Of a stretch of DNA of 34,855 nt, positions 16,596 through 34,373 are shown in pieces. Numbering within the stretch: position 1 is the first letter of the stretch; every line of letters starts with the position of its first letter. The stretch comes from Phycisphaerales bacterium (GTDB taxonomy: Bacteria > Planctomycetota > Phycisphaerae > UBA1845 > Fen-1342). A model generated the notes under the pieces. The model saw only the letters and a list, made by a program, of their open reading frames with translations, searched no databases and was not told the origin of the DNA. Location of the stretch: NCBI GenBank assembly GCA_003162245.1, contig PMMM01000154.1, forward strand, positions 1 through 34,855, read 5' to 3'. The translations under genes were made by a program, and so were the position numbers.

Positions 16596-18413
16596 CTATG
16601 TCCTCTCCATGCGCCACTCATGCGACGTTAGCGCCGGCGACACCCCGCTCGACTCCTCCCCGGCCGCCTCCGCCGGATACGCGAGCGGCTGGACGGAATC
16701 CGGGTACGCTCGCCGCAGGGCCGCGTGGACCAGGCCCAGGAAGAACGGGCTTGGAGACAAGGGCCGGCTGGTCAATTCGGGGTGTGCCTGCGTGCCCACG
16801 TAGTACGGATGCAGGCTTTCCCGCAGCTCGAGGATGTTCATGATCTCGGCGCGCGGCGACTTGCCGGAGAAGATCATGCCGCCGGCCTCCAGTTGCGGGA
16901 GGTAGCGGGGGTCCACCTCGTAGCGGTGGCGGAACCGCAGCCGCGTCCGCGCGCCGAACATGCGGGCCGCCAGCGTCCCGGGCTTGACGAGCACGTCCTG
17001 TCCGCCGAGGCGCATCGTGCCGCCGAGCCCTTCGATCTTCTTCTGCTCCGGCAGGAGGTCGATCACGGGATGGCGGCACTCGTTGTCGATCTCGGTCGAG
17101 TTCGCGTCCTCCAAGCCGCAAACGTCGCGCGCGAACTCGATCACGGCCATCTGGAACCCATAGCAGATTCCCAGGCAGGGTAGTTGCTGCGTGCGGGCAT
17201 ACTTCAGGCACGCAATCTTGCCCGTTGCCCCGCGCGTCCCGAAAGCACCGGGGACAATAATGCCGTGGATTTCCCGCAGCGCTTCCCCCGCCGTCTCTTC
17301 CGTCAGCTCCGATGTGTCGACCCAGCGGACCTGGACCTTGCACTCCAGATGCGCACCGGCGTGCTCCAGCGCTTTGAGAATGCTCGCGTACGCGTCGCGC
17401 ACCGCGGTGTACTTGCCCGTGATGCCGATCGAGACCTGCCGCGTCGCGTTCCGCAGGCGGTTCAGGTACGCGCCCCACCGTTCGCGGGCCACCCGTTCCG
17501 CCTCCTCGTTCGCGCGCGGCGTTAATTCCAGCCACTCCATCACCGCCCGGTCGTAGCCCGCCCCGCGCAGCAGTTCCGGAATCAGGTACACGCTCTCGCA
17601 GTCGTGCATGCTGAAGACGCGTTCCGGCGGCACGTTTGAGAACAGCGCGATCTTCTCGCGCACCTTGCGCGTGACGGGCGACTGGGCCCGGCAGGCGATG
17701 ATGTGCGGCTGGACGCCACATTCGAGTAGCCGGCGGATGCCGAGCTGGGCGGCCTTGCTTTTTTGTTCACCAAGGATGGGCGGCTCGAGCACGTAGGTCA
17801 GCGCGACGAAGCAGACGCTGTGCTGGCCCTCTTCGAAGGCGAGTTGCCGCATGGCCTCGATGAAGTGTGCGTTCTCGACGTCGCCGACGGTGCCGCCGAT
17901 CTCGACGAACACGACGTCGGCTTTCGTCGCGATGGCCAGCTCGCGCAGGCGGTTCTTCACCTCGCCGGTGACGTGCGGGATCATCTGCACGTCGCGTCCG
18001 AGGTAGGCGCCCGTGCGTTCGCGCTCCAGCACGCGCCGATAAACCTGCCCGCTGGTCGCGAAGTTGAGGCGGCTGAGGTCCTGATCGAGCGCCCGCTCGT
18101 AGGTTCCCAGGTCCATGTCGCACTCGGTCCCGTCGTCGAGCACGAAGACCTCGCCGTGCCGGAACGGGTTAAGCGTGCCGGAGTCGATGTTGAGGTAGCC
18201 TTCGAGCTTGATCGGCGAGACGCGCAACCCCTTGTCCTGAACGCACTTGGCCAGCGACGAACTGAAGATCCCTTTGCCCAGCCCGCTCATCACCGTGCCA
18301 AACACGATGACAAACTTCGTCCGGCCGAGCTGGTAGCCCGCCGGCAACGGGAGATAGAACTCCGTCTCGCCGGATTGATCGCGGATCGAATTCAGTATGC
18401 CGTCACTGTCCAT
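16596..18413 (-). CDS. pyrG: CTP synthase, divergent form with N- and C-terminal extensions
   Basis: A 605-residue enzyme that makes CTP from UTP using glutamine. The N-terminal synthetase domain has the P-loop SGLGKGI (Lys47), the Mg-binding CDMDLG segment (D99, D101) and E171 in VEIGGTVGD. The C-terminal class I glutaminase domain has the nucleophile Cys417 in GICYGF and His544/Glu546 in AHPE. It is longer than the usual ~535-550 residues because of about 30 extra residues before the P-loop strand and about 40 after the glutaminase. Several normally rigid motifs differ: KLEGYLNIDSGT replaces K-x-DPY-x-N-x-D-x-G, and GICYGFQ replaces GICLGMQ. Catalytic residues remain, so I expect activity. 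ATG at 18413 follows the kdsB stop after one base (TGA-A-ATG), indicating coupled translation. Confidence 0.93.
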   Translation of the reverse strand: MDSDGILNSIRDQSGETEFYLPLPAGYQLGRTKFVIVFGTVMSGLGKGIFSSSLAKCVQDKGLRVSPIKLEGYLNIDSGTLNPFRHGEVFVLDDGTECDMDLGTYERALDQDLSRLNFATSGQVYRRVLERERTGAYLGRDVQMIPHVTGEVKNRLRELAIATKADVVFVEIGGTVGDVENAHFIEAMRQLAFEEGQHSVCFVALTYVLEPPILGEQKSKAAQLGIRRLLECGVQPHIIACRAQSPVTRKVREKIALFSNVPPERVFSMHDCESVYLIPELLRGAGYDRAVMEWLELTPRANEEAERVARERWGAYLNRLRNATRQVSIGITGKYTAVRDAYASILKALEHAGAHLECKVQVRWVDTSELTEETAGEALREIHGIIVPGAFGTRGATGKIACLKYARTQQLPCLGICYGFQMAVIEFARDVCGLEDANSTEIDNECRHPVIDLLPEQKKIEGLGGTMRLGGQDVLVKPGTLAARMFGARTRLRFRHRYEVDPRYLPQLEAGGMIFSGKSPRAEIMNILELRESLHPYYVGTQAHPELTSRPLSPSPFFLGLVHAALRRAYPDSVQPLAYPAEAAGEESSGVSPALTSHEWRMERT

Positions 18414-18414
18414 T

Positions 18415-19176
18415 TCACGCACCCGCGCCGCGCAGTCGGCAGCGCGCCACAAATTGATCGTAGTCCTGGGGCGTGTCGATCCCGCCGCACGCCCGCTCGA
18501 CGGTCTCGACCGCCAGCGCGTACCCGCGTTCGAGCACGCGGAGCTGTTCGAGCTTCTCGGTCTGCTCGAGTCCACCCGGCGACCAGGTGGCGAGCTTCAG
18601 GAGGAACCCACGGCGGTACGCGTACACCCCGAGGTGCAGCAGCCATTGGCTCGGGGCCGCGCCCCCGGCGCCGTCTCGTGGATATGGTATCAGGGCGCGC
18701 GAAAAATACAGCGCCCGCCCCCGATGATCGGTGACGACTTTGACGGCGTTCGGATTGCGCGGGTCCGCGTCCGCCGGAAACGGGCACGCCAGCGTCGCAA
18801 CGGGGCACTCGGGCGGCTCGCCGGCCAGGCGGTCCACGAGCCGGTCCAGGTACGCCGGCTCCATCTCCGGCTCGTCACCCTGCACGTTGAGAATGATGTC
18901 GTCCTCTGCGCCGGGGAGACCCTGGACGGCTTCAGCGATGCGGTCGGTGCCGCTGGGGTGGTCCGCGCGGGTCATCACTGCTTCGCCGCCGAATGACCGG
19001 ACCGCCGTCGCGATTCGCTCGTCGTCCGTGGCGACGAGACAGCGTCGCACGCGCCGGGCGGCAGCAGCCCGCTCGTATACGTGCTGGATGAGGAATTTGC
19101 CGGTCGCTCGGGCGAGGGGTTTTCCGGGGAAGCGCGTTGACGCGTAGCGAGCCGGGATTAGGGCGACAACATCCAT
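18415..19176 (-). CDS. kdsB: 3-deoxy-manno-octulosonate cytidylyltransferase (CMP-Kdo synthetase)
   Basis: A 253-residue cytosolic enzyme that activates Kdo with CTP to CMP-Kdo for the lipid A-core. Family motifs appear in order: LIPARYASTRFPGKPL (about 5-20), LVATDDERI, MTRADHPSGTDRIAEA, NVQGDEPEM, ALYFSRALIPYPR, HLGVYAYRRGFL and LEQTEKLEQLRVLERG. Length is normal for the family. Its presence implies an outer membrane with Kdo. The stop is one base before the CTP synthase start, so the enzyme that uses CTP is translated together with the one that makes it. A longer upstream frame to 20103 runs through mobile-element remnants, so I start at ATG 19176, where homology to the family begins. No Shine-Dalgarno is obvious. 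Confidence 0.94.
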   Translation of the reverse strand: MDVVALIPARYASTRFPGKPLARATGKFLIQHVYERAAAARRVRRCLVATDDERIATAVRSFGGEAVMTRADHPSGTDRIAEAVQGLPGAEDDIILNVQGDEPEMEPAYLDRLVDRLAGEPPECPVATLACPFPADADPRNPNAVKVVTDHRGRALYFSRALIPYPRDGAGGAAPSQWLLHLGVYAYRRGFLLKLATWSPGGLEQTEKLEQLRVLERGYALAVETVERACGGIDTPQDYDQFVARCRLRGAGA

Positions 19177-19357
19177 AGACCGGCGACACGCGAACAGAAC
19201 TCGACGACGTTTCGATCTGGGGCGCAGGATACCGCCCCGGCCGCCCGAGGCCAAGCCCGGGCCCCGGGGCATGTCCGTCTGCGCGGACGCCGTGCTGCGC
19301 AGGCCATTCCTTCCAGTGCACTGCATCATATCTAATTGAACGCACGGCTGTTTCCCA

Positions 19358-19386
19358 TGTCTGACCTTCTGTAGGAGGATCAGACA
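19358..19386. repeat. Inverted repeat TGTCTGA / TCAGACA around a Shine-Dalgarno
   Basis: TGTCTGA at 19358-19364 pairs exactly with TCAGACA at 19380-19386. The loop contains AGGAGG (19373-19378), which would be the ribosome-binding site of the IS630-type remnant starting at GTG 19389. It could be part of the old element's left end or of its translational control. Confidence 0.5.
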
Positions 19387-19388
19387 CG

Positions 19389-19974
19389 TGCGAAGGGCGA
19401 TTCTGGTCGTATTGGCCGATGAAGAGCGGGCCACCTTGACCGTTTGACCGCTTGAGCGCGCAGCCGCACCGCGCCAGTGCGGCTCGTGACACGGACCCGG
19501 ATCGTGCTGGCGGCGGCCAGCGGAGCCGAGAACCAGGACAGCGCGCCTGACATGGCGCTGGCCCGCGGCACGGTCGTGACCCGGCGGAAGCGCTTCGCGG
19601 CGGACCGGCTGGCCGGGACCGAACGCGAACGTCCCCGCCCGGGCCGCAAGGCCACTAAACGCGAGCACTGGGCGCGGACCATCGTCGAGGTCACGCTGCA
19701 CACGACGCCGGAGAACGCCACGCGGTGGAGCCAGCGCAGCTTGGCGGAACATCTGGGCGTGTCCCAACCGCTGGTCGAACGGGTCTGACGGACCCACGAG
19801 TTGACCCCGCAGCGCGTGCGGGCGTTCAAGTTCAGCCGCGACAAACGCTTCATCAAGAAGCGGATCGGCGTGGTCGGGTTGTATCTGCGGCCGCCGGAGC
19901 ACGCGCTGGTCCTGAGCGTCGATGAGAAGCGCCAGATTCAGGCGTCGGACCGTACGCAGCCCGGTCTGCCGCTG
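19389..19974 (+). pseudogene. IS630-family transposase remnant (nonsense, frameshift, 3' truncation)
   Basis: The pieces line up as an IS630-type DDE transposase. GTG 19389, with AGGAGG upstream, begins VVLADEERATLTV, which ends in TGA. After a frame change, LVTRTRIVLAAASG and the helix-turn-helix-like N-terminal region continue from about 19477 to LAEHLGVSQPLVERV. An in-frame TGA at 19786-19788 then interrupts, at a place where relatives usually have Trp. The same frame resumes with [21 protein letters not shown] and reaches the first catalytic Asp in [11 protein letters not shown], then DRTQPGLPL. Similarity stops at about 19974, before the second and third catalytic acidic residues, where the decayed recombinase begins on the other strand. 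It cannot make an active transposase. Confidence 0.85.
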
Positions 19975-19978
19975 TCCC

Positions 19979-20488
19979 TTAACCCCGAGCATCGGTGGTT
20001 TCCGCGACCGCAGACGGCCGCATACCTGTTGCCGCCATCTTGAAGATCGCGCGCACCTGGTTCGCTTCTGCCAGCACCTGCTTGAGCTGCCGGGTGCGCG
20101 CATCCGCGGAGTAAACGAACGGCGGCGGGCCGGCGAGCCGCTTGCCCTGTCGCATCATCGCGGCGCGCGCACCGGCGATGCGCGAAGCCGTCATCTCACG
20201 CTCGAGCTGCGCGAAAGCCGATCGAGCGCTGTGACGAAGACACGATTCGCTGCGCTCCGCGACGACTCTCCGCAGTCGCCGCATAGCAGGTCGATCAAGC
20301 GTCGTGCTCGATTCCCCAGGATCGTCGAAACGCACGCCGATCCACTCGTGATCGTTGCCACCTTCCTTCTGAATGAGGTGCCGGCAGGTTTCAAACTGAG
20401 CGTTGCACGAGGCGAATCGGGCCGGCGCGCGGACCGACTATCGAGTGTAGATTGCGTACCGGATCTCTGACGTGGCTTCCTCGCTCAT
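19979..20488 (-). pseudogene. Decayed serine recombinase (amber before catalytic Ser, frameshift, internal deletion)
   Basis: Reading down from ATG 20488 gives EIRYAIYTR, a TAG stop (20438-20440), then SVRAP, CNAQFETCRHLIQ and FDDPGESSTTLDRPAMRRL. This matches the N-terminal catalytic domain of serine recombinases, which read YTRxS with the Ser as nucleophile; the amber replaces the residue just before it. Near 20260 the expected VDRLSR block lies in another frame (RVFVTALDRLSRS). The segment between that block and the next one is missing. The original frame then resumes with FAQLEREMTASRIAGARAAMMRQGKR, a PPPF-VYSADARTRQL stretch and QVRAIFK, and stops at 19979. The long C-terminal DNA-binding part is absent. 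Its end abuts the IS630 remnant. Confidence 0.85.
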
Positions 20489-20571
20489 CAGCGCCGCCCA
20501 GGTTCCAGCGCTCTCCCTTTCTCTTTCTAGTCGGCGGCGTGCAAGCCGGGAGGGGTCTATAACCCGCCGTG

Positions 20572-20620
20572 CTCTCGGGAGTTAACTACGTGGTTGGCCG
20601 TTAACGAGAGAAACCGAGAG
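20572..20620. repeat. Nested inverted repeat (CTCTCGG/CCGAGAG outer, GTTAAC inner)
   Basis: CTCTCGG at 20572-20578 pairs with CCGAGAG at 20614-20620. Inside it, GTTAAC at 20581-20586 pairs with GTTAAC at 20600-20605 around a 13-base loop. It lies 84 bases upstream of the recombinase remnant's start, on that gene's promoter side. Confidence 0.65.
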
Positions 20621-20736
20621 TGCAGGGCCGCGAGGACGGCCAACTCGGCGGCCGGGCTTCTGCGTCGCATGCGAGCGCGATCAGCCCGCTCGCTCTGGCA
20701 CAAGGGTCGTCGTAAGCGACTGCCGTGACTCGCGTT

Positions 20737-20772
20737 AAAACAAATAACCCCGGGTGCTCTCTGGCCCGGGGT
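20737..20772 (-). terminator. Strong Rho-independent terminator on the minus strand
   Basis: On the minus strand, ACCCCGGG (20772-20765) pairs perfectly with CCCGGGGT (20754-20747) across a 10-base loop, and the next ten bases are TATTTGTTTT. An 8-bp GC-rich stem plus a T tract is the classic intrinsic terminator. No minus-strand gene is visible just upstream (20773-21098), so the transcript it ends is unidentified. Confidence 0.65.
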
Positions 20773-21098
20773 CTCGCGTGAACTGGTCGATCGCCCAGCT
20801 CGCGACCGAGCGTCGATCTCCCCGAGGGCGGGTCGCCTGTTATTGCGCCCATCGAGATGCTGGCTGTGCTTGCCCCGGCGTTGGTCTGGAAAGCGGCGTA
20901 GCTTCCTCATCGGCCAAGGCTGAAGAACAGGCCCATTACACCGTGCCCACGTCCGCTGCGGCGTCACAACCAGTGGCTACGAAAGCGCCTGGGTGAGCAG
21001 ACCAAAGCGAGTTGAATGAACCCGCCCTGCCGCCCGTCAGGATATGGGCGAGGTGGTGAGCATGCGTAGCGCTCACCCGACCGGAAAGGCGGTGGACG

Positions 21099-21386
21099 AT
21101 GCGGCCCGAACGGATCAAGTGCGTTTGCCCCGAATGTCGCACGACCTACCGCGTACCGGCCACGGCCCTGGGGCACCATGCCAGGTGCCGCGCATGCGGC
21201 AAGACCTTCCGCGTCGGAGAGAACTCTCGCCCTCCGACTGAGGACGACATCATCCGCTGGCTTCGCGAGGTGGAGGACCAGGACGAAGCCGCCATCGAAC
21301 GTCAGCAGGCTGCAACCGATGAATTGACGGCAGGCTCCGACGCCGCATTTGACGCTCGTCCCCCCCGAAAGCGTTTGAGTGCGTGA
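21099..21386 (+). CDS. Small zinc-ribbon (MJ0042-type) protein
   Basis: A 95-residue protein that opens with a zinc ribbon: C-P-E-C at about residues 10-13 and C-R-A-C-G at about 30-34, inside KCVCPECRTTYRVPATALG and ARCRACGKTFRVG. This is the MJ0042-type finger common at the N-terminus of bacterial proteins. The remainder is acidic and charged (DDIIRWLREVEDQDEAAIERQQ) and is predicted to be helical. There is no catalytic motif. Role unknown; nucleic-acid or protein binding is possible. It is followed by a convergent gene, with a hairpin in between. The start at 21099 is the only ATG before the finger. Confidence 0.7.
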   Translation: MRPERIKCVCPECRTTYRVPATALGHHARCRACGKTFRVGENSRPPTEDDIIRWLREVEDQDEAAIERQQAATDELTAGSDAAFDARPPRKRLSA

Positions 21387-21428
21387 CCCGACGTGGTTTA
21401 CAGCCGTAGCTGGATGACCAAGCAGTCT

Positions 21429-21454
21429 CGGGCAGCGGGATCCCCGCTCGCCCG
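21429..21454. terminator. Long GC hairpin between convergent genes
   Basis: Two stacked stems, CGGGC/GCCCG and GCGGG/CCCGC around an ATC loop, give about ten base pairs with small mismatches. It lies in the 100-base gap between the stops of the zinc-ribbon gene (plus) and the C2H2 gene (minus), so it could terminate both. It lacks a T tract. Confidence 0.4.
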
Positions 21455-21486
21455 CAGAGGTCCTGCTGTGGTTCGTTACCGCAGCC

Positions 21487-22035
21487 TCACTTCGCCCGAA
21501 AAACTCCGCGACCGACCTTGGCCACGTCCCGCATTTCACGCAGCGCCACGCCGACGCTCTTAACCAGCGCCTTGTTCTTCGACTTGTAGCCCGCTTTGCA
21601 AGCTGCGGCAGTGACAGCCTTCGCCGCCATAACACCGCCGTGGGTCTGGAGGACTTGCTGGATGTGAGCCTTGAGTGAGCCTGGGCGGTACCCGGCTCCG
21701 CGACGACCCTTGCCCGGTGGAGCCTTCCGTGCCGGGGCCGCTGCGCCGAGGACGGTCAGCGCCTGATCGAGGCCCGCCATTTGGGAATCGAGGGCAGCAC
21801 GCTGGGCGGCTACTTCGTCGCGATAGCGCTGAATATCGCCCACCACGGCTGCAAGCCCCGCTGCTCCGCCAAGTCCCAGCGTCTTGAAGGGACGCTTCAC
21901 GCGCTTGGCTTTGGCTGCCGGGGCCACGCGCTTACCCTTCGGAGCATGCACGGTGGACCTGTGGCGACCCAGGTGAGCCGCCATCCCGAAGCTCCGCCCG
22001 CATGCTGAGCACTTGAATTTGCCCTTCTTTGCCAT
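21487..22035 (-). CDS. C2H2 zinc-finger protein with basic linker and C-terminal winged-helix-like domain
   Basis: A 182-residue protein starting with a classic C2H2 finger: C9-x2-C12-x12-H25-x4-H30 in FKCSACGRSFGMAAHLGRHRSTVH. A basic Ala/Lys/Pro linker follows (GKRVAPAAKAKRVKRP), then a Gly/Ala segment and a helix around IQRYRDEVAAQRAALDSQ that may form a coiled coil. Residues about 112-120 are again basic. The last 65 residues (LKAHIQQVLQTHGG to VGRGVFRAK) look like a small winged-helix domain similar to HARE-HTH or histone H1-like modules. The arrangement points to DNA binding, possibly regulatory or chromatin-like. C2H2 fingers are uncommon in bacteria but occur in planctomycetes. The function here is inferred only. 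Confidence 0.75.
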   Translation of the reverse strand: MAKKGKFKCSACGRSFGMAAHLGRHRSTVHAPKGKRVAPAAKAKRVKRPFKTLGLGGAAGLAAVVGDIQRYRDEVAAQRAALDSQMAGLDQALTVLGAAAPARKAPPGKGRRGAGYRPGSLKAHIQQVLQTHGGVMAAKAVTAAACKAGYKSKNKALVKSVGVALREMRDVAKVGRGVFRAK

Positions 22036-22272
22036 CTGTCGTCTCCTCGTGAATCAGGAACGGCGACACGGTATGCCCTGGTCTCACGCTCCGCAACTGG
22101 GACAGGAGCGGAAAGAAGTTCAAGCGTTGTTGTGGAAGGGAGTGACGCGAACGGTGGGGAGCCCGCCCCACCCTGCGCGTATCGTTCCCCGCGCAGAGGA
22201 CGACGATCAGATCGACGAGCGCGGCGCCGAGGTCTTCGTGTTTCTACTCGACGGACGGTCGGGTTCGTCCGT

Positions 22273-22557
22273 TCAGGACGGGTCTGCGGGCTCCGTGGGC
22301 TCTGCGGGCTTGCCCTTGGGCTTGGGCTTAGGCATGCCCTTGGCTTGCTGTTCGTCTGCTATCGAAGTCAGGGCGTCGGCCAGTTGGCGTAGGACTCCAG
22401 GGTCAGTCGGAATGACCACGCGATCATCGCGACCCCCGTAGGTGTGGCCATATTGGAATGACACACCCGTCCCCTGGACATCGAGATGTCCGCCGCTGCT
22501 CCTGACCGTGAACGGACCCGCTTTGCGGATGATAACTGGACCCTTGCTCTTGGCCAT
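22273..22557 (-). CDS. Small hypothetical protein with Lys/Pro-rich tail
   Basis: A 94-residue protein with no family I recognise. The N-terminal half is predicted to be beta-rich (GPVIIRKAGPFTVRSSGGHLDVQGTGVSF), followed by a helix (PGVLRQLADALTSIADEQQ) and a low-complexity tail of KPKPKGKPAEP units. ATG at 22557 has a run of five G a few bases upstream; an in-frame ATG lies three codons earlier at 22566. It lies upstream of the C2H2 gene on the same strand, with a 237-base gap, so the two may be transcribed separately. Confidence 0.55.
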   Translation of the reverse strand: MAKSKGPVIIRKAGPFTVRSSGGHLDVQGTGVSFQYGHTYGGRDDRVVIPTDPGVLRQLADALTSIADEQQAKGMPKPKPKGKPAEPTEPADPS

Positions 22558-22902
22558 AACCCCCACGATAGCGTAGGCGTCAGCCTTTGGCTAGGCGTCA
22601 GCCTTTGGCTACCCGGCCCACACGTCTCGTCTCCCGCGTGGGTCGTGTCCGCTCAAGCCCCGCCTTGTGAGGTTGACGGGCTTAGCTGCGTGGTCGGCAC
22701 GGCAGCGCGTTTCGCCGCCGCTGCGGAAGTCCGTCGCCAGACGACCGTGCCCGCAACAACCGCAAGCGACAGGAGAACGACGACGAGCGTCATATCGTCG
22801 CGCGGTACTGCGTTGAGCGTCGTAGCTGGCGACGTATTTCTTAACGAGACCAGGGTACCTGAACGTTGGCGGCTGCGTCCGTCCAGGGTAACATCGACCG
22901 AC
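22558..22902. other. Gene-free region with tandem hairpin repeat; weak small membrane frame
   Basis: This 345-base gap holds the 18-bp tandem repeat at 22574-22609. A minus-strand frame at 22910-22653 (85 codons) contains a single good membrane span (TLVVVLLSLAVVAGTVVW) followed by WRRTSAAAAKRAA, which looks like a small anchored protein. It has no clear ribosome-binding site and overlaps the start of the next plus-strand gene, so I list it only as a possibility. The long plus-strand frame through here lacks homology before 22903. Confidence 0.4.
22574..22609. repeat. 18-bp tandem repeat, two copies, each a small hairpin
   Basis: TAGGCGTCAGCCTTTGGC occurs twice in exact tandem (22574-22591 and 22592-22609), and the first two bases of a third copy follow. 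Each copy, with the next T, folds as AGCC-TTT-GGCT. It lies just upstream of the minus-strand small gene starting at 22557. Confidence 0.85.
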
Positions 22903-23640
22903 ATGGGCATTATTCCGGATCAGATGATGGACGCGATTCACTTCGCCGATTTCGTCATGGCGAAAGAGAAGAAGGATCGCATCGGTAGCAGCCAGGGCGT
23001 GGTTTACCCCATGAAGTTCTTCTATTTTCACGGCCAGAAAGAGATCACGGGACTGATGGGCGCTCCGTTGCACCACCCAGGACTGGACGACAAAGACGTG
23101 CTGGCTATCGTGATGCGTTTGTTCGCTCAAGCTCTGGAAGCAAACGCGGTGCTGCACGTCACCGAAGCTTGGACCGCCACACGATGTGCCTTCTGCGGCG
23201 GTGACATCCTTGGCGTACCCGAAGCGCCATGTGAGGTTTGTGGACATGAGGTTGTCCCACCATCGGAGAATCCCTACCACGAGGAGATGCTCATTTGCAC
23301 TCTGAGCGTCAGGAACACGGAGAAGGCGTTTCTCTGGACCACCCGATTTGAACGAGATTCGGACGAGAAAATCACGGGCTTTACCGACAAGCTTCAATGC
23401 CAGCCGATGGAAGTGAGCGGTCGTTTCATGGAGGTCTGGAAGCTGGAACGGTGGATGGCGCCGCATGTGGCCGTCAACTACGCCAACATCTTGAAGGCGC
23501 TGGGCAAGGTGGTTGACGAGAAGTGGATCAAGGCTGCGCGGCTCGCGGAGGAGATGTTACCGTCTGATTACCCACTCATCCGCCTTAACGTCGAAGATGT
23601 CGTGGCGGCCCTGAGAAGGATGACGTTGGAGCGGAACTGA
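22903..23640 (+). CDS. Unknown protein with central four-cysteine zinc ribbon
   Basis: A 245-residue protein I do not recognise. Its central feature is a zinc ribbon at about residues 88-110: C-A-F-C, then C-E-V-C-G 13-15 residues later. Before it lies a mixed alpha/beta region (DAIHFADFVMAKEKKDR; a VVYPMKFFYFHGQKE strand; DKDVLAIVMRLFAQALEANAVLHV). After it come further strands (EEMLICTLSVRNTEKAFLWTTRFERD) and a long C-terminal helical part. It could be a nucleic-acid-binding or regulatory factor; no catalytic motif is evident. ATG at 22903 was chosen because coding character begins there; the ribosome-binding site is poor and another ATG lies at 22924. It precedes the DUF3553-like gene on the same strand. 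Confidence 0.6.
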   Translation: MGIIPDQMMDAIHFADFVMAKEKKDRIGSSQGVVYPMKFFYFHGQKEITGLMGAPLHHPGLDDKDVLAIVMRLFAQALEANAVLHVTEAWTATRCAFCGGDILGVPEAPCEVCGHEVVPPSENPYHEEMLICTLSVRNTEKAFLWTTRFERDSDEKITGFTDKLQCQPMEVSGRFMEVWKLERWMAPHVAVNYANILKALGKVVDEKWIKAARLAEEMLPSDYPLIRLNVEDVVAALRRMTLERN

Positions 23641-23740
23641 GTCGGTCCGAAGCCGCAGACTGGTGCCCGAACCGCCAGGAGATTATGATGGAGGAGCACC
23701 TGGGCGGCACGGGGCCGCAACGGATATTGCAGGGGCCAGC

Positions 23741-24775
23741 ATGGCACGTCGGAAGAAAGAAACGGGACTCGACGCCTTTGTTCGTGTCGCTGAGCAAACC
23801 GCCCGCCCGCTGAGTGTCAAAAAAACGCGGGAAAGCGAAAGGCTGATGGGTATCCCAGCATACACCGTCGGGATGATCGTTGAGCACCCCACGCGACCAG
23901 ACTGGGGACCAGGGAAAGTGCTCGCCGTTGAGCACGAGCGGATTACGGTCTACTGGCGAGACTTGCGGGAATCCAAGGCGGGCGACGCCGTCAAGGTGAT
24001 GAACATCAACGCGATCCCGTTATCCGTTGCTGCCAGCCAGTCCGATCCGTGGCTGGATCATCTGCCTCGTTTCGAGAACGGCGGCCTGCGGATGACCAAG
24101 CGCCGCCTGACATTCGCGGAAGCACTCGACCTATTCCTGGCTCGGTTTCCGAACGGGTTCAAAGACCCGAAGTACCTGGATGATCGGAAGTTTCAGGAAC
24201 GGGCGTACAAGTGGCGGGCTCATCAGGCGTTTGAAGAGATGCTCGGGAACGGCAAGGGCGAGCGGCTCCTTGCGGCGGGCGACATCGATGGCTTGGTTCA
24301 CGCGGCGCAGCACGTTGTCGGCATGGTCAACTTGTTGTCCCCCTACGAGCAGATGGCCCTTCACGATGCTCTCGCCGACAAGGACGCGGCAAGGTCGTTC
24401 TTCACGGGCTTGTTCGCTTTGCTCTCGGCATCGAAGCCATCGGCAGAGACCTTCGAGCCATACGCCGCTGCCGTTCGCAATCTGCCTGCTGAGGAGGACC
24501 GAGCACGCGTGGCGACGTGGCCCGTGCTGACGATTCTGCCGTTCCTGGCTCAGCCCGACCGACACATGCTGCTCAAACCGTCGGTGACGGAGAAGGCGGC
24601 TGAGCGGCTGGCCTTCAATCTGAATTACCGCCCCGAGTTGAACTGGCTGACCTACGAGCGGCTCCTGGTCATGAGCGGGTTGCTGTTCGATAAGCTGAAG
24701 CCCTACGGGGTCAGAGACTTCATCGACGTGCAGTCGTTTATGTGGATCACGGGCCGCCAGCACGCGACCGACTGA
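23741..24775 (+). CDS. Unknown protein with N-terminal DUF3553-like domain
   Basis: A 344-residue protein. Residues about 38-88 (VGMIVEHPTRPDWGPGKVLAVEHERITVYW) have the pattern of DUF3553, a small beta-barrel-like domain also found next to helicases and nucleases. The remaining 250 residues are mostly helical and match nothing I know (FAEALDLFLARFPNGF; DIDGLVHAAQHVVGMVNLLSPYEQMALHDAL; LTYERLLVMSGLLFDKLKPYG). ATG at 23741 has AGGGG five bases upstream, which decides it over the frame starting at 23663. It lies 100 bases after the zinc-ribbon gene and about 320 bases before the methyltransferase on the same strand. A plausible accessory island member; function unknown. Confidence 0.65.
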   Translation: MARRKKETGLDAFVRVAEQTARPLSVKKTRESERLMGIPAYTVGMIVEHPTRPDWGPGKVLAVEHERITVYWRDLRESKAGDAVKVMNINAIPLSVAASQSDPWLDHLPRFENGGLRMTKRRLTFAEALDLFLARFPNGFKDPKYLDDRKFQERAYKWRAHQAFEEMLGNGKGERLLAAGDIDGLVHAAQHVVGMVNLLSPYEQMALHDALADKDAARSFFTGLFALLSASKPSAETFEPYAAAVRNLPAEEDRARVATWPVLTILPFLAQPDRHMLLKPSVTEKAAERLAFNLNYRPELNWLTYERLLVMSGLLFDKLKPYGVRDFIDVQSFMWITGRQHATD

Positions 24776-24931
24776 CGGGGTCGGAGACCCGCGAATTTTC
24801 GGGACAAAGGGACGTGGAACGAGTACGCGGAGTGGTTGCTCCGCAAGCTCGAAGCTCTTCACAAGGTGTTCTCGTCGCGGGTGCGGCAGCTTGCGCTTGG
24901 CGACCAGGACGACAGCCGACAGGACCAGTAA
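24776..24931 (+). pseudogene. Remnant of a DUF4268-like C-terminus, no start codon
   Basis: Directly after the stop of the DUF3553-like gene, in the same frame, 51 codons read NFRDKGTWNEYAEWLLRKLE, then ALHKVFSSRVRQLALG, and end at TAA 24929-24931. The pattern W-x-E-x2-EWL-x3-L-x2-H-x-VF-x2-R-V-x2-L closely resembles the extreme C-terminus of DUF4268-type proteins, which are common in restriction and defence loci. There is no usable start codon before the conserved part, so it is either a leftover of a deleted gene or a readthrough extension. The family assignment is from memory of the motif. Confidence 0.5.
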
Positions 24932-25094
24932 AAGATTACGGCTCCGATCTCCTCGTTGGTTGAAACGACCAAGGTCGGTTGATGAGCTTGGCGGCACCGC
25001 TACACGCCGCGTGTGCGAGAACGTATGATGGGCGTCCTGCGACGGGGTGAATGGCCACTCCGCCCGACGAGGCTCAGACGATGGGGCGACGGCA

Positions 25095-28000
25095 GTGCCG
25101 CAGAACGGTGATATCGACCTGAAGGCCGAGGACATCAGCCGCCTGGCGTCCCTCGACGCCGTGGCCGCGTTTTTCACTCGCCTCGGCTATCCGACCGACC
25201 GTCGCAAGGAACAACCCGCGACCGCTCTCGGCCTCCCGCCCGAGACCGCCGACGCGATCCGCAAGATGGAGCTACTCGCCGAGGACGACGAGCAGTTCCT
25301 CTGCGTCATCTTCGTCCAGCTTCGGTCGATCACGGCCAAGGCCCGCAACGAACTCGTCCGCAACTTCGGCCGACGCAGCGCCGACCATCTGCTCGTCCTG
25401 ACGAAGGACTTCGACGTTCTCGAATTCGTCCTGATCGACAAGCAGACCCGTCAGCGACACGCCCCTGGCGGCGGCCCGAGCGTACAGCCCATTCCCCTCT
25501 CCGTCACCGTCATGCGAAAGGCCAGCACCCATCTCGACCTTCGCATCCTGCGTCGGTTGACCTGGACGGGCAAGGATGGGCTCGACCAGTTCGACAAGCT
25601 CCGCAGCGTCTTCGAGGCGGCTCACTGGAGCGAGAAATACTTCCAGAACCGAGCCCTGTTCGCCGACCATTACCTCGAAACGCGGCTCCGCGAAGATGCG
25701 GCTTGGAGCGATGATCCGTCGGCCGCGTTCGCCGCAGTCCGCAACCTTTTCAGCAACGCCCGTGGCCGCTGGAGCAACGAGCCCGAGCAGACGATCCGCG
25801 ACGAGCTGTATGAGCCCGCCTGGAAGCTGCTCGGCTTCAAGGCGAAGGTCGCCAACGCCGCAAATCAGGACCACCCGACGCCCGACTACGAGCTTCACGG
25901 ATCAAACGGGACGCTGACCGTTGCCTTCTGCTACCGCTGGGATCGCTGGCTCGACGGCCTCGACCTGAACGACCCCGACACGCCCGACGAAAATCCTGGG
26001 GCCGCCGTGGTCTCCGCTCTCGCCGAGGGCAAGGCCCGCTGGGCCATCGTCACGAACGGCAAGTACTGGCGGCTCTACAGCCGCGATGCCCACTCGCGTT
26101 CGACCAACTTCTACGAGGTCGATCTCGAAGAAGCGTTGCTCGCGTCGGGCGAGACCGACCCGAACGAGGCGTTCCGCTACTGGTGGCTCTTCGTCCGTCG
26201 CCAAGCGTTCGAGCCGCTGCCGCAGGCCGAGCAGCCGACCTGCTGGCTCGACACCATCGTCCAGGGCAGCCGCGACTACGCGAAACGCCTGGGCGAGCGT
26301 TTGAAGGAACGCATCTTCGTCGAGATCTTCCCGCACCTGGCGCAGGGCTTCTTGAAGGACCGCAAGAAGCGGCTCGGCGTCACCCGCCGTCCGACCGACG
26401 ACGAGTTGAAGGACGCGTTCGAAGCGACGCTGACGCTGCTGTACCGGCTGTTGTTCCTGCTTTACGCCGAGGCCCGCGACCTGCTGCCCATCCGCGAAGC
26501 CGCGTACAAGGCCGCCAGCCTGAAGCAGATCAAGGAGGAAATCGCGGAGAAAGCTGGCATCGCCGAGACCGACGTGCCCACGCGGCTGAACGCCTACCCC
26601 GACACCGAGACGACCCTCTACGATCACCTGGCTCGCCTGTTCGGGGTCATGGACCAGGGCGACGCGGTGCTCAACGTCCCCTGCTACAACGGCGGCCTGT
26701 TCCTGACCGAGCCCGACCACAACTCAGCCGAGCGGGAACACCGCATCGCCCGCTTTCTGCTGGAGCACAAAGTCCCCGACCGCTATCTCGCCCTGGCCAT
26801 CGACCGCCTGGCCCGCGACGTGGACGAGAAGAACTTCTCGCTCGCCTTCATCGACTACAAGTCGCTGGAAGTCCGCCACCTGGGCAGCATCTACGAGGGG
26901 CTGCTTGAGTTCAAGCTGAAGATCGCCGAGGAAGACCTGACGACCACGACCGAGAAGAAGGCCGAAAAATACATCCCGCTCTCACAGGCCAAACCTGGGC
27001 GGGGCAAGAAGGCCGCCGCAACCCCCGTCGTCCGCAAGGGCGAGGTCTACCTGTCAAACGACAAGGCGGAGCGGAAGGCGACGGGCAGCTACTACACGCC
27101 CGACCCCATCGTCGAATACATCGTCGAGCACACCGTCGGCCCCGTCCTGGCGGAGAAGCTCGAAGCCCTGCGGGCGGATCTGAACGCGGCGGGCAGCACG
27201 TATCACCGCCACCTGACCAACGCCAAGAACAACCCTGGCCTGCTGCCGAAGAACGCCGACCCGCGTGCCTTCGCTGCCTCCAAGACTTACGCCGAGCATC
27301 AGGCTCTCGTGGATCGCGTCTTCGACATGAAGGTGCTCGACCCCGCGATGGGCAGCGGCCACTTCCTGGTCGAGACCGTGGACTTCATCACGGATCGGCT
27401 GCTCGACTTCCTCAACCGCTTCCCGAACAACCCCGTCCAGTTCGCCCTCGCCAAGACGCGGCGGAGCATCCTGGACGCCCTCGGCGAGCAGGGCGTCACC
27501 GTCGATCCCGACAAGCTGACCGACATCAACCTGCTCAAGCGGCACGTGCTCAAGCGGTGCATCTACGGCGTGGACCTGAACCCGATGGCCGTCGAGCTGG
27601 CCAAGGTCAGCCTGTGGCTCGACGCGTTCACGCTCGGGGCTCCGCTGAGCTTCCTGGACCACCACCTGCGCTGCGGCAACAGCCTGATCGGGGCAACGTT
27701 CGAAGACCTGAAGAAAGCGACCAGCGGCCAGCTTCTTGGAATCGACTACGCGCCACTGCTACGGGCAATCGGCCACGTCCTGTTCGTGAACGAGATGTCC
27801 GATGCGACGGCGGCGGAGGTCCACAAGTCGGCGGACGAGTACTCGCAGGCCCGCAGGGAACTCTCGGGCTACCAGATCGTCCTGGACCTGCTGGTCGGGG
27901 ACCATTTCGTGGATCAGCCCGCGACGGGTCGCGGCCCCACGGCCGCGGGGCATGTCCAGCCGTCCTCACTGATCCGTGACACGACGCTCGACCTGACGAC

Positions 28001-29567
28001 GCGAGACGCGTTCCTCGCGCCTCTCAAGGACAACGCCCGCCGCACGGTAGCGGAAACCGAGGTCGTCGCTCACCGTTCCGATCTGCGGTTTTTCCACTGG
28101 GAAATCGAGTTCCCCGAGGTCTTCTTTGGCTTCGCGGACACGAATCGTCGGCATATCAAGCCCAGGAACGACATCGCCGCTGGCTCGGCAGGCTTCGACG
28201 CGGTGGTCGGCAATCCGCCGTATGACGTTTTGTCTTCGAAGGAAACTGGCAGTGATATCGCCGCCCTTGCCGACTGGATCAACGCTCGGTCGGAATACGC
28301 CCCGAGCTGCAAGGGCAAGAACAACCTGTACAAACTCTTCGTGTGCCGTGCTCTTCACCTGGTCAGATTCGGTGGCACCTGGGGCTTCATCGTTCCGATG
28401 GGGATCCTCGGAAACGACCAGTACAGCGAGATTCGCCGCGCGGTCTTTGCACACGGCACGCTTCTTTGTGTTGACGCATTTCCTCAGAAGGACGACCCCG
28501 AGCGCCGCGTCTTCAAAGACGCGAAGCTCGCAACCACCATACTCATTGCAGTTCGCGCGGACCCCGCAGAGTACGCGACCCGTGAGTTTGCGTCGCGCCA
28601 GCATCCTGCCGCTGTCGTCGAGAGTCACTCGCCATGCGTACGTCTTACCAGCCGAGATGTCGCGGCCGTAGACCCTAATAACCTGACCGTCGTAAGTTGC
28701 AGCGAAGACGACTGGCATCTCGCCCGACGTATCGCGTCGTCCGATCGCGTCGTGCGACTTTCCTCAGTCGCTCGCTGGTATCAAGGGGAGATCAATGAGA
28801 CCAACGAACGAGCTGACGGGACACTTGTTGATGGCGGCGATGCCCTCGTGGTTCGTGGTGCCGCCGTGTGTCTTTACGCTGTTCGTGAGGCCTCCCAAGG
28901 AAGCGACTTGTGGCTGGACACCAGGGCCTTCCTCTCAGACAAATCGCCCAGTAGCAGGGCATTCCATCATCGGCAGGCGCGGGTAATCATGCAAAACGCG
29001 AGCCCCCAAAACAACTTCCGTCGCCTGATCGCTGCGGTTCTTCCTGCCGGACAGTTTTGTAGCTACAAACTGAATTACTGTCCCGAGCCCGACTGTAGAG
29101 TGTCAATGCACGCGCTGCTTGCGATGATCAACTCCAAGCTCTTAGATTGGTATTTCCGTCTCCTCAGCACTAGTGCAGACGTTAATCACTATCAACTCGA
29201 TGTTCTTCCGTTTCCACGCTTCGACGTAACGCCCCCTCGCGGGACTGGCCGCCGGAGATCCCAGCAGTACGAATCCCTTCGGCGTGCAGCAAAAGCGTCC
29301 GACTGGTCTGGCGCAAGGGCGGTCGTCTTGCCGTTGATTGCAACACCACCCTTTGGACCAGCGGCACTCGATTGCATGGAGTTGCTCGTGCAGGAAATCA
29401 CCGACATCGAGACAGCACGCGGCGAGATCGCTCGGGCGGAGCGATCCGCGCTGGCCTCGAAGGCCCAGCCGCTCCAAGACCTGCTCGACCACATGATCTA
29501 CCGCATGGCGGGCCTGGCCGACGACGATATCGCGGGACTTGAGGAACGCTTGGCCCGGATGCTGTAA
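25095..29567 (+). CDS. Giant Eco57I-like (type IIG-type) adenine DNA methyltransferase
   Basis: A 1490-residue protein. The gamma-class N6-adenine methyltransferase core has the S-adenosylmethionine motif D749-PAMGSGHFL, the [18 protein letters not shown] acidic motif and the catalytic N1040-[18 protein letters not shown] motif (about 670) precedes the core, as in Eco57I, PglX and DISARM DrmMI relatives. The N-terminal 650 residues include a domain with LFVLT/VLTKD strands and a PDY...[10 protein letters not shown] module like those fused to type I and IIG nucleases. There, F278-C-Y replaces the expected E-x-K. The C-terminal 350 residues probably form the DNA-recognition domain. GTG 25095 follows GGGG by eight bases; GTG 25047, in frame, is the alternative start. 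The next gene begins three bases after the stop. Confidence 0.9.
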
Positions 29568-29570
29568 GCT

Positions 29571-30062
29571 ATGAGCGTGTTTCTGTCCGATAACGAAATT
29601 GCGGACCTGTTGGCCGAGGCTAAGACGCTGCCGGCGGATTGGCCGACACGCCTTACGCTGCGCCCGAAGCGCGGGCACAAGGAACGCGAGCTGGACCTGG
29701 CCGGCGAGAAGGGATCGCGGTTCCGGTTGATCCTGCGTCAGGCGGATTTGAACCAGCTCGATTTCTCGGTGATCCTGGCGCTGCTGGCCCCGAATACGAA
29801 CCAGGTCTTTCGCTTGCTGCGCTGCAACGGGAAGAGCCACGAGCACACGAATAGAATCGAACAGGAGACGTTTTACGATTTCCACGTTCACCGGGCCACG
29901 GAGCGTTACCAGCAGGATGGCTGCCCGGAAGACGGCTATGCAGAAGTGACGACGGAGTACGCGGACTTCGCAGGGGCGCTCGACACCGTCCTGTCACGGG
30001 GCGGGTTTGTCCGGCCCAAGTCCGACCAGTTGGGCCTGTTCGACGGAGGAAAGTCGTCATGA
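29571..30062 (+). CDS. DUF6978-like protein in methylase-helicase operon
   Basis: A 163-residue protein with an N-terminal helix (LSDNEIADLLAEAKTLPADW), then beta-rich sequence (RELDLAGEKGSRFRLILRQADLNQLDFSVILALL) and a conserved-looking H-x-H segment (FYDFHVHRATERYQ). This layout fits what I know as DUF6978, a small family seen in defence-type loci; the assignment is from memory. No nuclease motif is apparent, though the clustered His residues could bind a metal. ATG lies three bases after the methyltransferase stop, and its own stop overlaps the next start by four bases (ATGA), so it must be cotranslated with both neighbours. Confidence 0.65.
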   Translation: MSVFLSDNEIADLLAEAKTLPADWPTRLTLRPKRGHKERELDLAGEKGSRFRLILRQADLNQLDFSVILALLAPNTNQVFRLLRCNGKSHEHTNRIEQETFYDFHVHRATERYQQDGCPEDGYAEVTTEYADFAGALDTVLSRGGFVRPKSDQLGLFDGGKSS

Positions 30063-30844
30063 ACGTCGAGGCTATCGAACGCGACTTCCGCGCGAAGGTC
30101 GGGCGCAAGGTCCGACTGGCCAGCGAGGGAATCGATCGCTTTCGCGTGTTCACGCCCTTTGTTTTCGACGACGGCGACCACCTGTGCATCGTGCTGCGTC
30201 GTGCCGGAACAGATTGGGTGCTGACGGACGAAGGCCACACTTTCATGCACCTGACGTATGAGATCGAGGAGAAGGCCCTGCAGGAGGGGACGCGCAACCG
30301 GATCATCGACGGGGCACTCGGCGCGTTCGGCGTGCAGGACGCAGACGGCGAACTGCGCCTGCCTGTACCTGACGCCCGCTTCGGCGACGCGCTCTTCGGT
30401 TACGTGCAGGCCCTCTTGAAGATCACGGACGTTCGCTTTCTCAGCCGCGAGCGCGTCAAGTCGGCCTTCTGGGAGGACTTCCAGACCTTGCTGAGGGAGA
30501 CGGTTCCCGACGTGCGGCGCACCTTCGACTATCACGACCCTGTGCATGATCCTGAGGGCAAGTATACGGTGGATTGCCGCGTTAACGGCACCGCACGACC
30601 GCTGTTTGTGTACGCGATCCCGAACGACGACACGTGCCGCGACGCCACAATTGCCCTGCTGCAATTCGAGCGTTGGGACCTGCCGCACCAGTCGCTGGCG
30701 GTCTTCGAGGAGCAGGAGTCGATCAACCGCAAAGTGCTTGCCCGTTTCAGCGACGTGTGCGAGAAGCAGTTTTCCAGCTTGGGTGCGAACCGCGACCGGA
30801 TCAGGCGCTACATTGGGGAAGCTGCCAATATCACGAGCCCGTAG
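30059..30844 (+). CDS. DUF1828/DUF1829-like protein in methylase-helicase operon
   Basis: A 261-residue protein. Residues about 15-105 match the DUF1828 pattern (DRFRVFTPFVFDDGDHLCIVL, then WVLTDEGHTFMHL). The C-terminal half resembles DUF1829 (FDYHDPVHDPEGKYTVDC; PLFVYAIPNDDTCRDATIALLQFE). Such proteins appear singly beside restriction or phage-related genes, and their biochemistry is not established. TDEGHTF and the acid-rich strands might form a metal site, but that is a guess. The start overlaps the preceding stop as ATGA. It is followed by 106 bases carrying an inverted repeat before the helicase start. Confidence 0.75.
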   Translation: MNVEAIERDFRAKVGRKVRLASEGIDRFRVFTPFVFDDGDHLCIVLRRAGTDWVLTDEGHTFMHLTYEIEEKALQEGTRNRIIDGALGAFGVQDADGELRLPVPDARFGDALFGYVQALLKITDVRFLSRERVKSAFWEDFQTLLRETVPDVRRTFDYHDPVHDPEGKYTVDCRVNGTARPLFVYAIPNDDTCRDATIALLQFERWDLPHQSLAVFEEQESINRKVLARFSDVCEKQFSSLGANRDRIRRYIGEAANITSP

Positions 30845-30863
30845 GCCGGGGCGGCGAGTCACG

Positions 30864-30913
30864 GATGGCTTGGCTGCCGAAGGGTTTGCAGTAGTCGAAC
30901 CATGCCAAGCATC
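30864..30913. repeat. Inverted repeat upstream of the helicase gene
   Basis: GATGGCTTGGC (30864-30874) pairs with GCCAAGCATC (30904-30913), giving a seven-base perfect stem extended by three bases after a one-base bulge, with 29 bases between the arms. It lies in the only real gap of the operon, 37 bases before the helicase start. It could be an operator, an attenuator or a processing site. Confidence 0.55.
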
Positions 30914-30950
30914 ACCCATTCTGATGACGCAGTGACGGGGGGCTGAGAGC

Positions 30951-33900: not shown

Positions 33901-34361
33901 ACAATCGCTTCCAGATCGCCCAGATGATCGCGTGCCAGCCCGATGAGCCCCGCTTCATCGGCGACCAGGACGTGTTCGTGCTGCAAGAGAAGGTCATCGA
34001 CCACATCCTGCGGGCGGAGAAAGAGACCGAAGCCAAGGCGGCAGCCCCGAGGACCATTGACCCGACGCAGCAGGCGGTGGCCGAGGAGTTGAAGAACGCC
34101 CTGCGTCGTGGAACGGTGGACCGCGACGCCACGAAGGCTGCCATCCGCTATCTCGGGCAGCCGATGGGTCGCTTCGCCATCAAACGGCTGAAGGCGACGT
34201 ACGCCGAATGGAGCACGGGCCGCGACGACCAGGTGCTCCTGTCGGCCGTGCAATCGCTCGCAGCGGACTACGGAAAGGAACCGACGGATTCCGCTTCCCG
34301 TGAAACCACGCTCGCCCGTGAGAACCTGGAGCTGGTCTGCTTCGAGTATGTATCCTGCTGA
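30951..34361 (+). CDS. PLD-like domain fused to SNF2-family helicase
   Basis: A 1136-residue protein. Residues 1 to about 175 are a phospholipase D-like module with HAK (122-124) and GSSNFTGPGL (150-159); the Asp of a full H-x-K-x4-D motif is displaced (HAKAYLFHHD). The SF2/SNF2 motor follows: G321-L-G-K-T (motif I), D393-E-S-H (motif II), S432-A-T (motif III), STDVLSEGQNLQDCG (motif V) and Q827-R-N-G-R-I-D-R (motif VI). About 300 C-terminal residues have no family I know. The fusion suggests an ATP-driven DNA translocase with a DNA-binding or cleaving head, as in restriction or anti-phage systems; DISARM class 1 DrmD is a similar helicase. GTG at 30951 has a six-G run eight bases upstream. 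The gene ends the operon, 12 bases from a convergent nuclease-like gene. Confidence 0.88.
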   Translation: MIPFVIDNDQHRLGDVLNALLAESSGKPLDIATAYFSVSGYRLVKDGLHKVGAFRLLLGAEPQSGTDIGLRPDERKALLARLRGDVEASPFNAETLKLVEDLIAYLRAEKVEVRLYERGFLHAKAYLFHHDLIGPQNRSDRLRPYAAIVGSSNFTGPGLTSNRELNIVHRVFTEGDEPTDHAAAERVSYLSHDSVGQKETTLDPSGMEVPATARRLIKSEVGARAISDLTQWFERQWRDAADFKQDLIDLLDASKFGTVEYTPYQVYLKALFEYFRDELGEDAMDVGRSAVALAEFQDDAVKRARRILTRYDGVLIADSVGLGKTWIGKKLLEDFAYHRRQKAIVVCAASLREMWKKELASATIAAQVVGMEEMGRETFDPKRWGDADVVLIDESHNFRNDKANRYLGIEQIIQLNGGRGRDGARKKVILLSATPINNDLYDLLSQIRLFTQAEPDYFRDIGIGDLNLYFRRARQQMRQEDASAGTVLFNLLEEIVVRNTRPFIRVAYPNATINGKPVRFPDRKLRTVKYSLGATYAGLYDEIVAAVDHLSLAPYKLESYRKPETVLDRQDHEWEQGREQGFVGIFKTRFLKRLESSVEAFRLSLHRALTFESTYLDYLLDGKVVSSRDFQKAMRFLERDVEDEAEPASVADELDADAEAKAHIDSLPRVDLNQYDLRKLKHDVETDIKLLKRLYDKSGSLAANDAKLEALKELLAGDLKGKKVLIFSSFKDTTRYVHRTLTNNSNAQWLRSSGQPTIRRIDSGNHPDERGAILGQFAPVANGKDVAPKDQIDILISTDVLSEGQNLQDCGIAVNYDLTWNPIRLVQRNGRIDRIGSPHETVVIHNMFPEDELERLLRLVERLTDRISRIDDLGLLDASILGEVVHPRTFNTIRRIRDEDGTVLDEEEERAELAGPETLLKQLKELLNREGKDALVALPHGIHSGLRRDKCYGMFFYFQAPRLDGSGQRHFWRYIDAKTHEVLDNRFQIAQMIACQPDEPRFIGDQDVFVLQEKVIDHILRAEKETEAKAAAPRTIDPTQQAVAEELKNALRRGTVDRDATKAAIRYLGQPMGRFAIKRLKATYAEWSTGRDDQVLLSAVQSLAADYGKEPTDSASRETTLARENLELVCFEYVSC

Positions 34362-34373
34362 TGGACACGCACC

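Follow-up and report, generated by a model that had tools for sequence, protein, structure and literature searches.

Classical C2H2 zinc fingers (PF00096) are rare in prokaryotes according to the table of one survey, which gives 59 prokaryotic proteins and a genomic distribution of 0.03 (PMC7017128), and the bacterial fingers described in the literature compared here are of the Ros/MucR type, which has another spacing (PMC9779718). Ros is described as having a 9-residue Cys-His spacer and a C-terminal finger within a larger fold (PMC9779718), and MucR as an H-NS-like, oligomeric zinc-finger protein that bridges DNA (PMC11662661). The xenogeneic silencer Rok of Bacillus is composed of an oligomerising N-terminus, a basic Arg/Gly arm, and a C-terminal winged helix that contacts the minor groove (PMC6212790). 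ZZ-type zinc-finger histones, which are reported mainly from Proteobacteria, join a eukaryotic-type N-terminal zinc-binding domain to a DNA-binding domain (PMC11390915). The HARE-HTH domain has been proposed to sense modified DNA (PMC11037411) and occurs fused to restriction-type modules (PMC12839542).

The DNA analyzed here (hereafter the window) is a contig of 34,855 nucleotides from a Phycisphaerales bacterium (PMMM01000154.1). It encodes a protein (P0001) with an N-terminal classical finger, two basic linkers on either side of a coiled-coil-like helix, and a C-terminal HARE-HTH-type domain (Table 1). The protein is a genuine member of a family and, since this family is real and has been multiplied and domain-swapped in a planctomycete lineage, not a wholly new kind of protein. 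In the open-licence PMC literature, judged by titles and the starts of abstracts, no paper on the finger/coiled coil/HARE layout was found, which is not proof of absence. This conserved bacterial family, multi-copy and uniting a classical finger with HARE-HTH, offers a testable case of domains combined in eukaryote-like fashion among planctomycete-type bacteria; its recombinant paralogues form a natural series of swapped heads behind near-constant fingers.

Table 1. Features of the finger gene and of its surroundings in the window.
Feature	Positions	Strand	Basis
Accessory-type region carrying the finger copy, to the contig end; exact borders approximate	19317-34855		End of the sister match
Protein of 95 aa with an MJ0042-type zinc ribbon, convergent with the finger gene	21099-21386	+	NCBIfam TIGR02098, 22.4 bits (cut-off 20.9)
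ORF of 182 aa: C2H2 finger, basic linker, coiled coil, basic linker, HARE-HTH	21487-22035	-	Translation and relatives; ATG at 22035, stop at 21487, read from the sequence
HARE-HTH-type C-terminal domain, residues 117-182	21490-21687	-	PF05066 in 38/41 and WH_Rok in 15/41 family segments
Second basic, Gly/Arg-rich linker, residues 98-116	21688-21744	-	Translation; segment identities
Coiled-coil-like helix, residues 59-97	21745-21861	-	Low-confidence model; family profiles against designed coiled coils
First Lys/Ala/Pro/Arg-rich linker, residues 31-58	21862-21945	-	Translation; segment identities
Classical C2H2 zinc finger, residues 7-30	21946-22017	-	Pfam PF00096; ligands invariant in 16/16
AGGAG, putative ribosome-binding site, 8-12 bases 5' of the ATG	22043-22047	-	Read from the sequence
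ORF with two CxxC motifs	22486-23640	+	Translation; no zinc-ribbon family matched
Type IIG-like restriction/methyltransferase (DrmMI/REase_MTase_IIG)	25047-29567	+	PADLOC, E 5.1e-84 and 3.8e-70
PLD-domain and SNF2/helicase protein	30951-34361	+	Pfam

Domains of the finger protein

The C-x2-C-x12-H-x4-H finger of the original prediction, which was made from the DNA letters alone, is present as C9-x2-C12-x12-H25-x4-H30. It matched the Pfam model zf-C2H2 with an E-value of 2.8e-4 and 21.6 bits, against a cut-off of 25.2 bits that was exceeded by three of the seven finger copies in the same genome (28.1, 26.1, and 25.9 bits). The seven top C2H2 matches genome-wide were exactly these seven copies, and two weak others lay elsewhere (E 0.16 and 0.53). 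When all six frames of the window were searched for C..C.{12}H.{3,5}H, two matches were obtained, whereas 50 mononucleotide shuffles yielded 0.04 on average and never more than 1; one of the two was the finger of P0001, and the other (plus strand, from base 45) did not look finger-like. The four zinc ligands were invariant in all 16 aligned finger-bearing proteins of the GTDB family, an alignment from which L019 was omitted for its internal stop codon and L014 for its identity with the L013 gene. Among 37 finger proteins drawn from three GTDB families (15, 21, and 1), recognition-helix position 3 was always His and position 6 always Arg, position -1 was occupied by Met (33 proteins) or Leu (4), and the classical core (Phe, Leu) was kept throughout; residues 9-30 agree with the C-x2-4-C-x12-H-x3-5-H spacing.

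Under the classical finger code, His3 and Arg6 would favour a G-rich triplet. A lone zinc finger is usually weak, and it could bind RNA or protein. An alternative that we consider unlikely is that the finger and the basic linker serve such binding, for example by linking the HARE domain with some other partner. The dsRNA-type model zf-C2H2_jaz was matched weakly by 5 of the 16 members (best E 0.019), which would suit this role; however, zf-C2H2 was matched by all 16 (best E 1.8e-6), and the best-scoring solved chains for the finger were designed or tandem C2H2 proteins, which argues against it.

The basic Lys/Ala/Pro linker that had been noticed behind the finger was recovered as two basic stretches, residues 31-58 and 98-116, the former ranking among the two parts of the protein that vary most in the segment identities. 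They are separated by a coiled-coil-like helix (about residues 59-97) that was absent from the first description. Family profiles of this region matched designed (antiparallel) coiled coils, a likeness in heptad character that does not firmly indicate orientation or dimerisation. The linker had been called H1-like, and both stretches do share the Lys/Ala/Pro-rich basic composition of H1/H5 tails, a likeness of composition only that is not diagnostic. No linker-histone model was found among the nine families that 41 C-terminal segments of the family matched at E <= 0.1, so that the description stands for composition and was dropped for identity. The same applies to the eukaryote-like DNA-binding layout: a multi-domain layout of DNA-binding type, ending in a HARE-HTH-class domain, was retained without the H1-like identity.

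The winged-helix-like C-terminal domain of the original prediction is, by profiles, of the HARE-HTH type. The full P0001 protein matched PF05066 below the curated cut-off (E 0.022), and its C-terminal segment alone gave an E-value of 0.0028 and 18.5 bits against a cut-off of 25.9 bits. At E <= 0.1, the model was matched by 38 of the 41 family segments (best E 1.7e-7), and one copy in the window's genome, L005, scored above the cut-off (30.9 bits). The winged helix of Bacillus Rok (WH_Rok) was the second match, in 15 of the 41 segments (best E 4.3e-5), P0001's own segment not being among them. AlphaFold2 models, both built from alignments of 2 sequences, were of low confidence. The whole protein (mean pLDDT 49.5) was modelled with finger strands and a helix, a helix at residues 57-98, and then three helices, and the C-terminal segment (mean pLDDT 57.5) as three helices with no resolved wing. 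A Foldseek search with the latter model returned nothing at E <= 0.001, and a profile of the HARE segment against the PDB gave one hit (E 1) and no HARE or Rok structure. The HARE-HTH assignment therefore rests on the profiles and not on the models, which were poor and found no fold match.

Genomic setting of the window's copy

The finger gene had been placed in an accessory island, and the comparison with a sister genome agrees. Window positions 16634-19316 were 91.5% identical to a sister contig (G001:C272), which continues beyond the point at which the match ends (19316). Pieces within 19316-19973 matched two other sister contigs, so that insertion and rearrangement are not told apart. Of the two neighbours that had been taken for zinc-ribbon proteins, the MJ0042-type one passed its family cut-off, and the other (22486-23640) matched no zinc-ribbon family beyond having two CxxC motifs. 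A plus-strand frame at 22086-22140 (RSGKKFKRCC) resembles what we take to be the decayed end of a SEC-C motif. Further on, a restriction-like cluster (25047-34361) comprises the IIG/DrmMI-type gene, a DUF6978-like gene (below cut-off), a DUF1828 gene, and the PLD-SNF2 helicase; no named defence system was assigned to it.

This cluster bears on a reading in which the HARE domain senses DNA modification and the window's copy works with the adjacent restriction/methyltransferase genes. Such a role for HARE-HTH has been suggested (PMC11037411), restriction-type fusions exist (PMC12839542), and the type IIG-like gene begins 3 kb away. The reading is nevertheless improbable in our judgement, as the HARE role is itself a proposal and no restriction/methyltransferase gene was found among ten neighbour ORFs around the six other finger copies (Pfam only, one to two ORFs each). 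In that scan, a radical SAM protein with B12-binding was found beside L006 and beside L002, and the other neighbours included a KaiC-type ATPase, a glycoside hydrolase, a glycosyltransferase, a TIM-barrel, RCC1 repeats, MMPL, a Golvesin-type protein, and a weak HEAT match. The RCC1-repeat gene (831 aa; L170:3646-6141, minus strand) converges on the finger copy L004. Some 230-260 bases beyond the HARE-only remnants L009 and L010 (L169, L155), there are again pieces that match the C-terminal end of its product, so that a two-gene segment seems to have been duplicated.

The protein had also been suggested as a regulator of the island, and this part was not borne out. Six further finger copies lie on other contigs, outside the accessory region, and at least two of them (L007 and L003) are at places common with the sister genome, which makes an island-specific regulator unlikely. 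The window's finger gene is one member of a resident family and does not in itself speak for an island-specific factor. The protein may still have the other suggested role, that of a chromatin-like factor.

Copies, recombination, and distribution

The window's genome contained 12 family matches, namely seven finger-bearing copies, one fingerless copy, three partial HARE pieces, and one coiled-coil-only piece. The six other finger copies were 81, 65, 55, 50, 56, and 49% identical to P0001 over most of its length, and the fingerless copy was 46% identical over residues 31-182. The closest relative of the window's copy (L001) in the sister genome was L013 (91% of residues, 94% of bases); L013 sits at a contig end, and orthology by place is therefore not judgeable for this pair. 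L007 and L017 occupy a common place in the two genomes, where 6.65 kb align at 90.7% identity. L003 and L015 very probably do so too: 2.5 kb align at 96%, from a point 190 bases 5' of L003 and 3 kb 5' of L015. A shared place for L005/L016 was considered and not borne out, the match covering only 826 bases, from about 230 after to 70 before the gene. A 1.9-kb stretch with 98.6% identity (L167:10100-12000, L175:7858-9758) directly follows L016 in the sister genome, whereas in the window's genome it is found some 5 kb away from another copy, L006; this is a sign of rearrangement around the finger genes.

Two of the copies, L003 and L006, were shown to be recombinants in which HARE heads were swapped behind conserved fingers. 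In sliding identity, L003 was 87-94% identical to L001 in windows with starts at nt 36-171 and 57-70% in later windows, and its identity to L004/L015 was 42-67% in windows with starts at nt 81-171 and 71-89% later. The switch from L001-like to L004/L015-like sequence falls at about nt 200-260, which places the crossover within the coiled-coil part. The 5' end of L006 was L005/L016-like (84-89%, nt -54 to 36) and its 3' end L007/L017-like (81-88%, last two windows), with an ambiguous middle. Segment identities were consistent with both mosaics. Because the sliding and segment identities of L003 and L006 change parent along the gene, HARE heads have been exchanged between copies; the HARE domain is also more divergent between copies than the finger.

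Whole-gene dN/dS for the closest pairs of the two genus genomes was 0.31 (L001/L013), 0.25 (L005/L016), 0.30 (L007/L017), and 0.38 (L004/L015), with the middle part highest in all four cross-genome pairs. For the paralogue pair L001/L002, dN/dS peaked in the HARE domain (0.62), which may reflect target divergence or relaxed constraint. These values bear on the explanation that the copies are decaying dispersed duplicates without function. Signs of decay do exist, in the HARE-only pieces L009-L011, in the internal TAG of L019 (G015), and in the ACG that replaces the ATG of L015; the explanation is nonetheless very unlikely, given dN/dS of 0.25-0.38 in all four pairs, the invariant ligands, and the two places kept in the sister genome. 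In L015 (G001:C37), the ACG leaves the start ambiguous.

A survey of planctomycete relatives showed that the family is wide and not restricted to this strain, its centre lying in a single order of Phycisphaerales-type planctomycetes. Matches were found in 26 of the 27 genomes of the GTDB family, where the fingerless form occurred in 24 and the full finger and HARE form in 7 (match coordinates, most ORFs read). Two genomes (G020 and G021) contained the full form only, and the full-length match of G015 (L019) carries an internal stop codon. Across the order, 74 of 114 genomes matched. The full finger, coiled coil, and HARE form was present in 28 of these 114 (7 in family f1, 20 in f7, and 1 in f8; three of these counts combine two matches within a single ORF, and one has an internal stop), and the finger and coiled coil without HARE in 18 (match coordinates, most ORFs read). 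A split form, in which finger plus coiled coil and coiled coil plus HARE are separate genes of one genome, was observed in G007 (L133/L029) and G008 (L134/L027). The finger proteins L120 and L121 (G042, G041) have a different C-terminus, helix-turn-helix-like by eye, and L120 matched C2H2 families only in Pfam. Further out, 123 of 396 genomes in a class sample and 32 of 392 in a phylum sample matched, and among the matches listed from outside the order, most begin past the finger; L136, L144, and L150, from other families of the class, have two fingers each. When P0001 was used as a single query against genome contigs reaching beyond the phylum, L013 was the sole match. No relative was found in viral contigs, phages, or plasmids with narrow peptide patterns or one-protein tblastn, which distant relatives may escape.

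In the family, the fingerless coiled-coil and HARE gene is the usual one, and finger copies are expanded and dispersed in the window's genus. Among 22 fingerless loci inspected with 1.5-kb flanks, a Tyr-tRNA synthetase gene (product at least 70% identical to that at L030) adjoins 7, an HDOD gene 8, and a response-regulator gene 7, L030 being counted in each; a more distant synthetase of the Tyr-tRNA class lies beside the fingerless gene in five other loci. The fingerless copy of the window's genome (L008) and its sister L018 have none of these synthetase, HDOD, or response-regulator neighbours. One chromosomal place of the fingerless gene thus recurs in several genera and not in the window's genus. 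Of 73 rows, 67 entered a rapid tree after the removal of 4 from outside and 2 long ones. On this tree the finger label must change at least 5 times, but a single clade was not rejected in an AU test (p 0.219), and repeated gain of the finger fusion is therefore not shown.

Proposed role and comparison with known systems

The sequences and the analogy with Rok and MucR suggest, with roughly even confidence on our part, that the family members are coiled-coil dimers with two DNA-binding heads, acting as Rok/MucR-like nucleoid-structuring or broad regulatory proteins. The coiled coil would hold the dimer together. At one end, the classical finger, with its constant helix positions 3 and 6, would prefer the G-rich triplet of the finger code; at the other, the HARE-HTH head, which is exchanged between copies, would act behind its Gly/Arg-rich arm. 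Two DNA contacts would be held or bridged in the manner of Rok and MucR, and the copies would differ in the HARE head.

The main rival of this two-headed dimer is that the proteins are ordinary, sequence-specific, autoregulating transcription factors, which act on their own promoter and a few local targets and have no architectural role; we regard it as doubtful, though to be taken seriously. It draws on about 100 bases 5' of the start that are common to four of the seven finger copies of the window's genome and to three sister copies, with the pattern TTGCA[CT]-N17-TAG[CT]CT. The stretch is promoter-like and putatively functions as a promoter. Within the spacer, an intact GGCG-N7-CGCC repeat was seen in four of the seven stretches that were aligned, and the three matches reported by a search of the window's genome all precede family genes; the search was not fully sensitive, since it missed the stretch of L002, which is present in the alignment. 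On the other hand, the remaining three aligned stretches carry a disrupted repeat, and the whole stretch is absent from L004, L007, and the window's copy, the similarity of which to L013 and L002 starts at about the start codon. The stretch may simply have been copied along with the gene, and copies and families alike have a constant recognition helix, unlike factors with diverging targets. A peptide shared upstream (RRSLVRSRS...) was also considered as a translated tRNA 3' end, which would have pointed to tRNA-linked integration; this was rejected, as neither the window nor any of 12 loci contained a tRNA according to ARAGORN and the alignment is promoter-like.

The two-headed dimer can be carried further, as a tentative and rather speculative proposal. 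The family members would be lineage-specific chromatin proteins of bacteria that bridge DNA, dimerised by the coiled coil, with a eukaryote-type finger that stays constant at one end and an exchangeable HARE winged-helix head at the other. Copies in one cell would form mixed dimers, and new head combinations would arise through recombination in the coiled coil.

The family can be compared with five known systems. The ZZ-type histones are alike in that an N-terminal eukaryotic-type zinc-binding domain is joined to a DNA-binding domain in bacteria, but P0001 had no Pfam match to a ZZ domain or a histone fold. HARE-HTH proteins (PF05066; HB1, ASXL, restriction endonuclease HTH) share the profile found in most C-terminal segments of the family (38 of 41), whereas here the HARE domain is the tail of a short, 182-residue bacterial protein, behind a finger and a coiled coil. 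Rok resembles the family in layout and through the WH_Rok matches (15 of 41 segments, best E 4.3e-5), with coiled-coil propensity alone standing here for its oligomerisation. It differs in that the family has an extra N-terminal zinc finger, that HARE-HTH matches outnumber those to WH_Rok (38 and 15), and that P0001 itself lacks a WH_Rok match. Ros and MucR likewise combine a bacterial C2H2-type finger with an oligomerisation part, the latter predicted here. In contrast to them, the spacer here is of 12 residues, the finger is N-terminal, and a second domain of DNA-binding type follows; the first two features rule out membership in the Ros/MucR family. With eukaryotic C2H2 fingers (PF00096), the finger shares the spacing, the Phe and Leu core positions, and the helix layout, whereas here it is a single finger in a bacterial protein, with helix positions 3 and 6 fixed.
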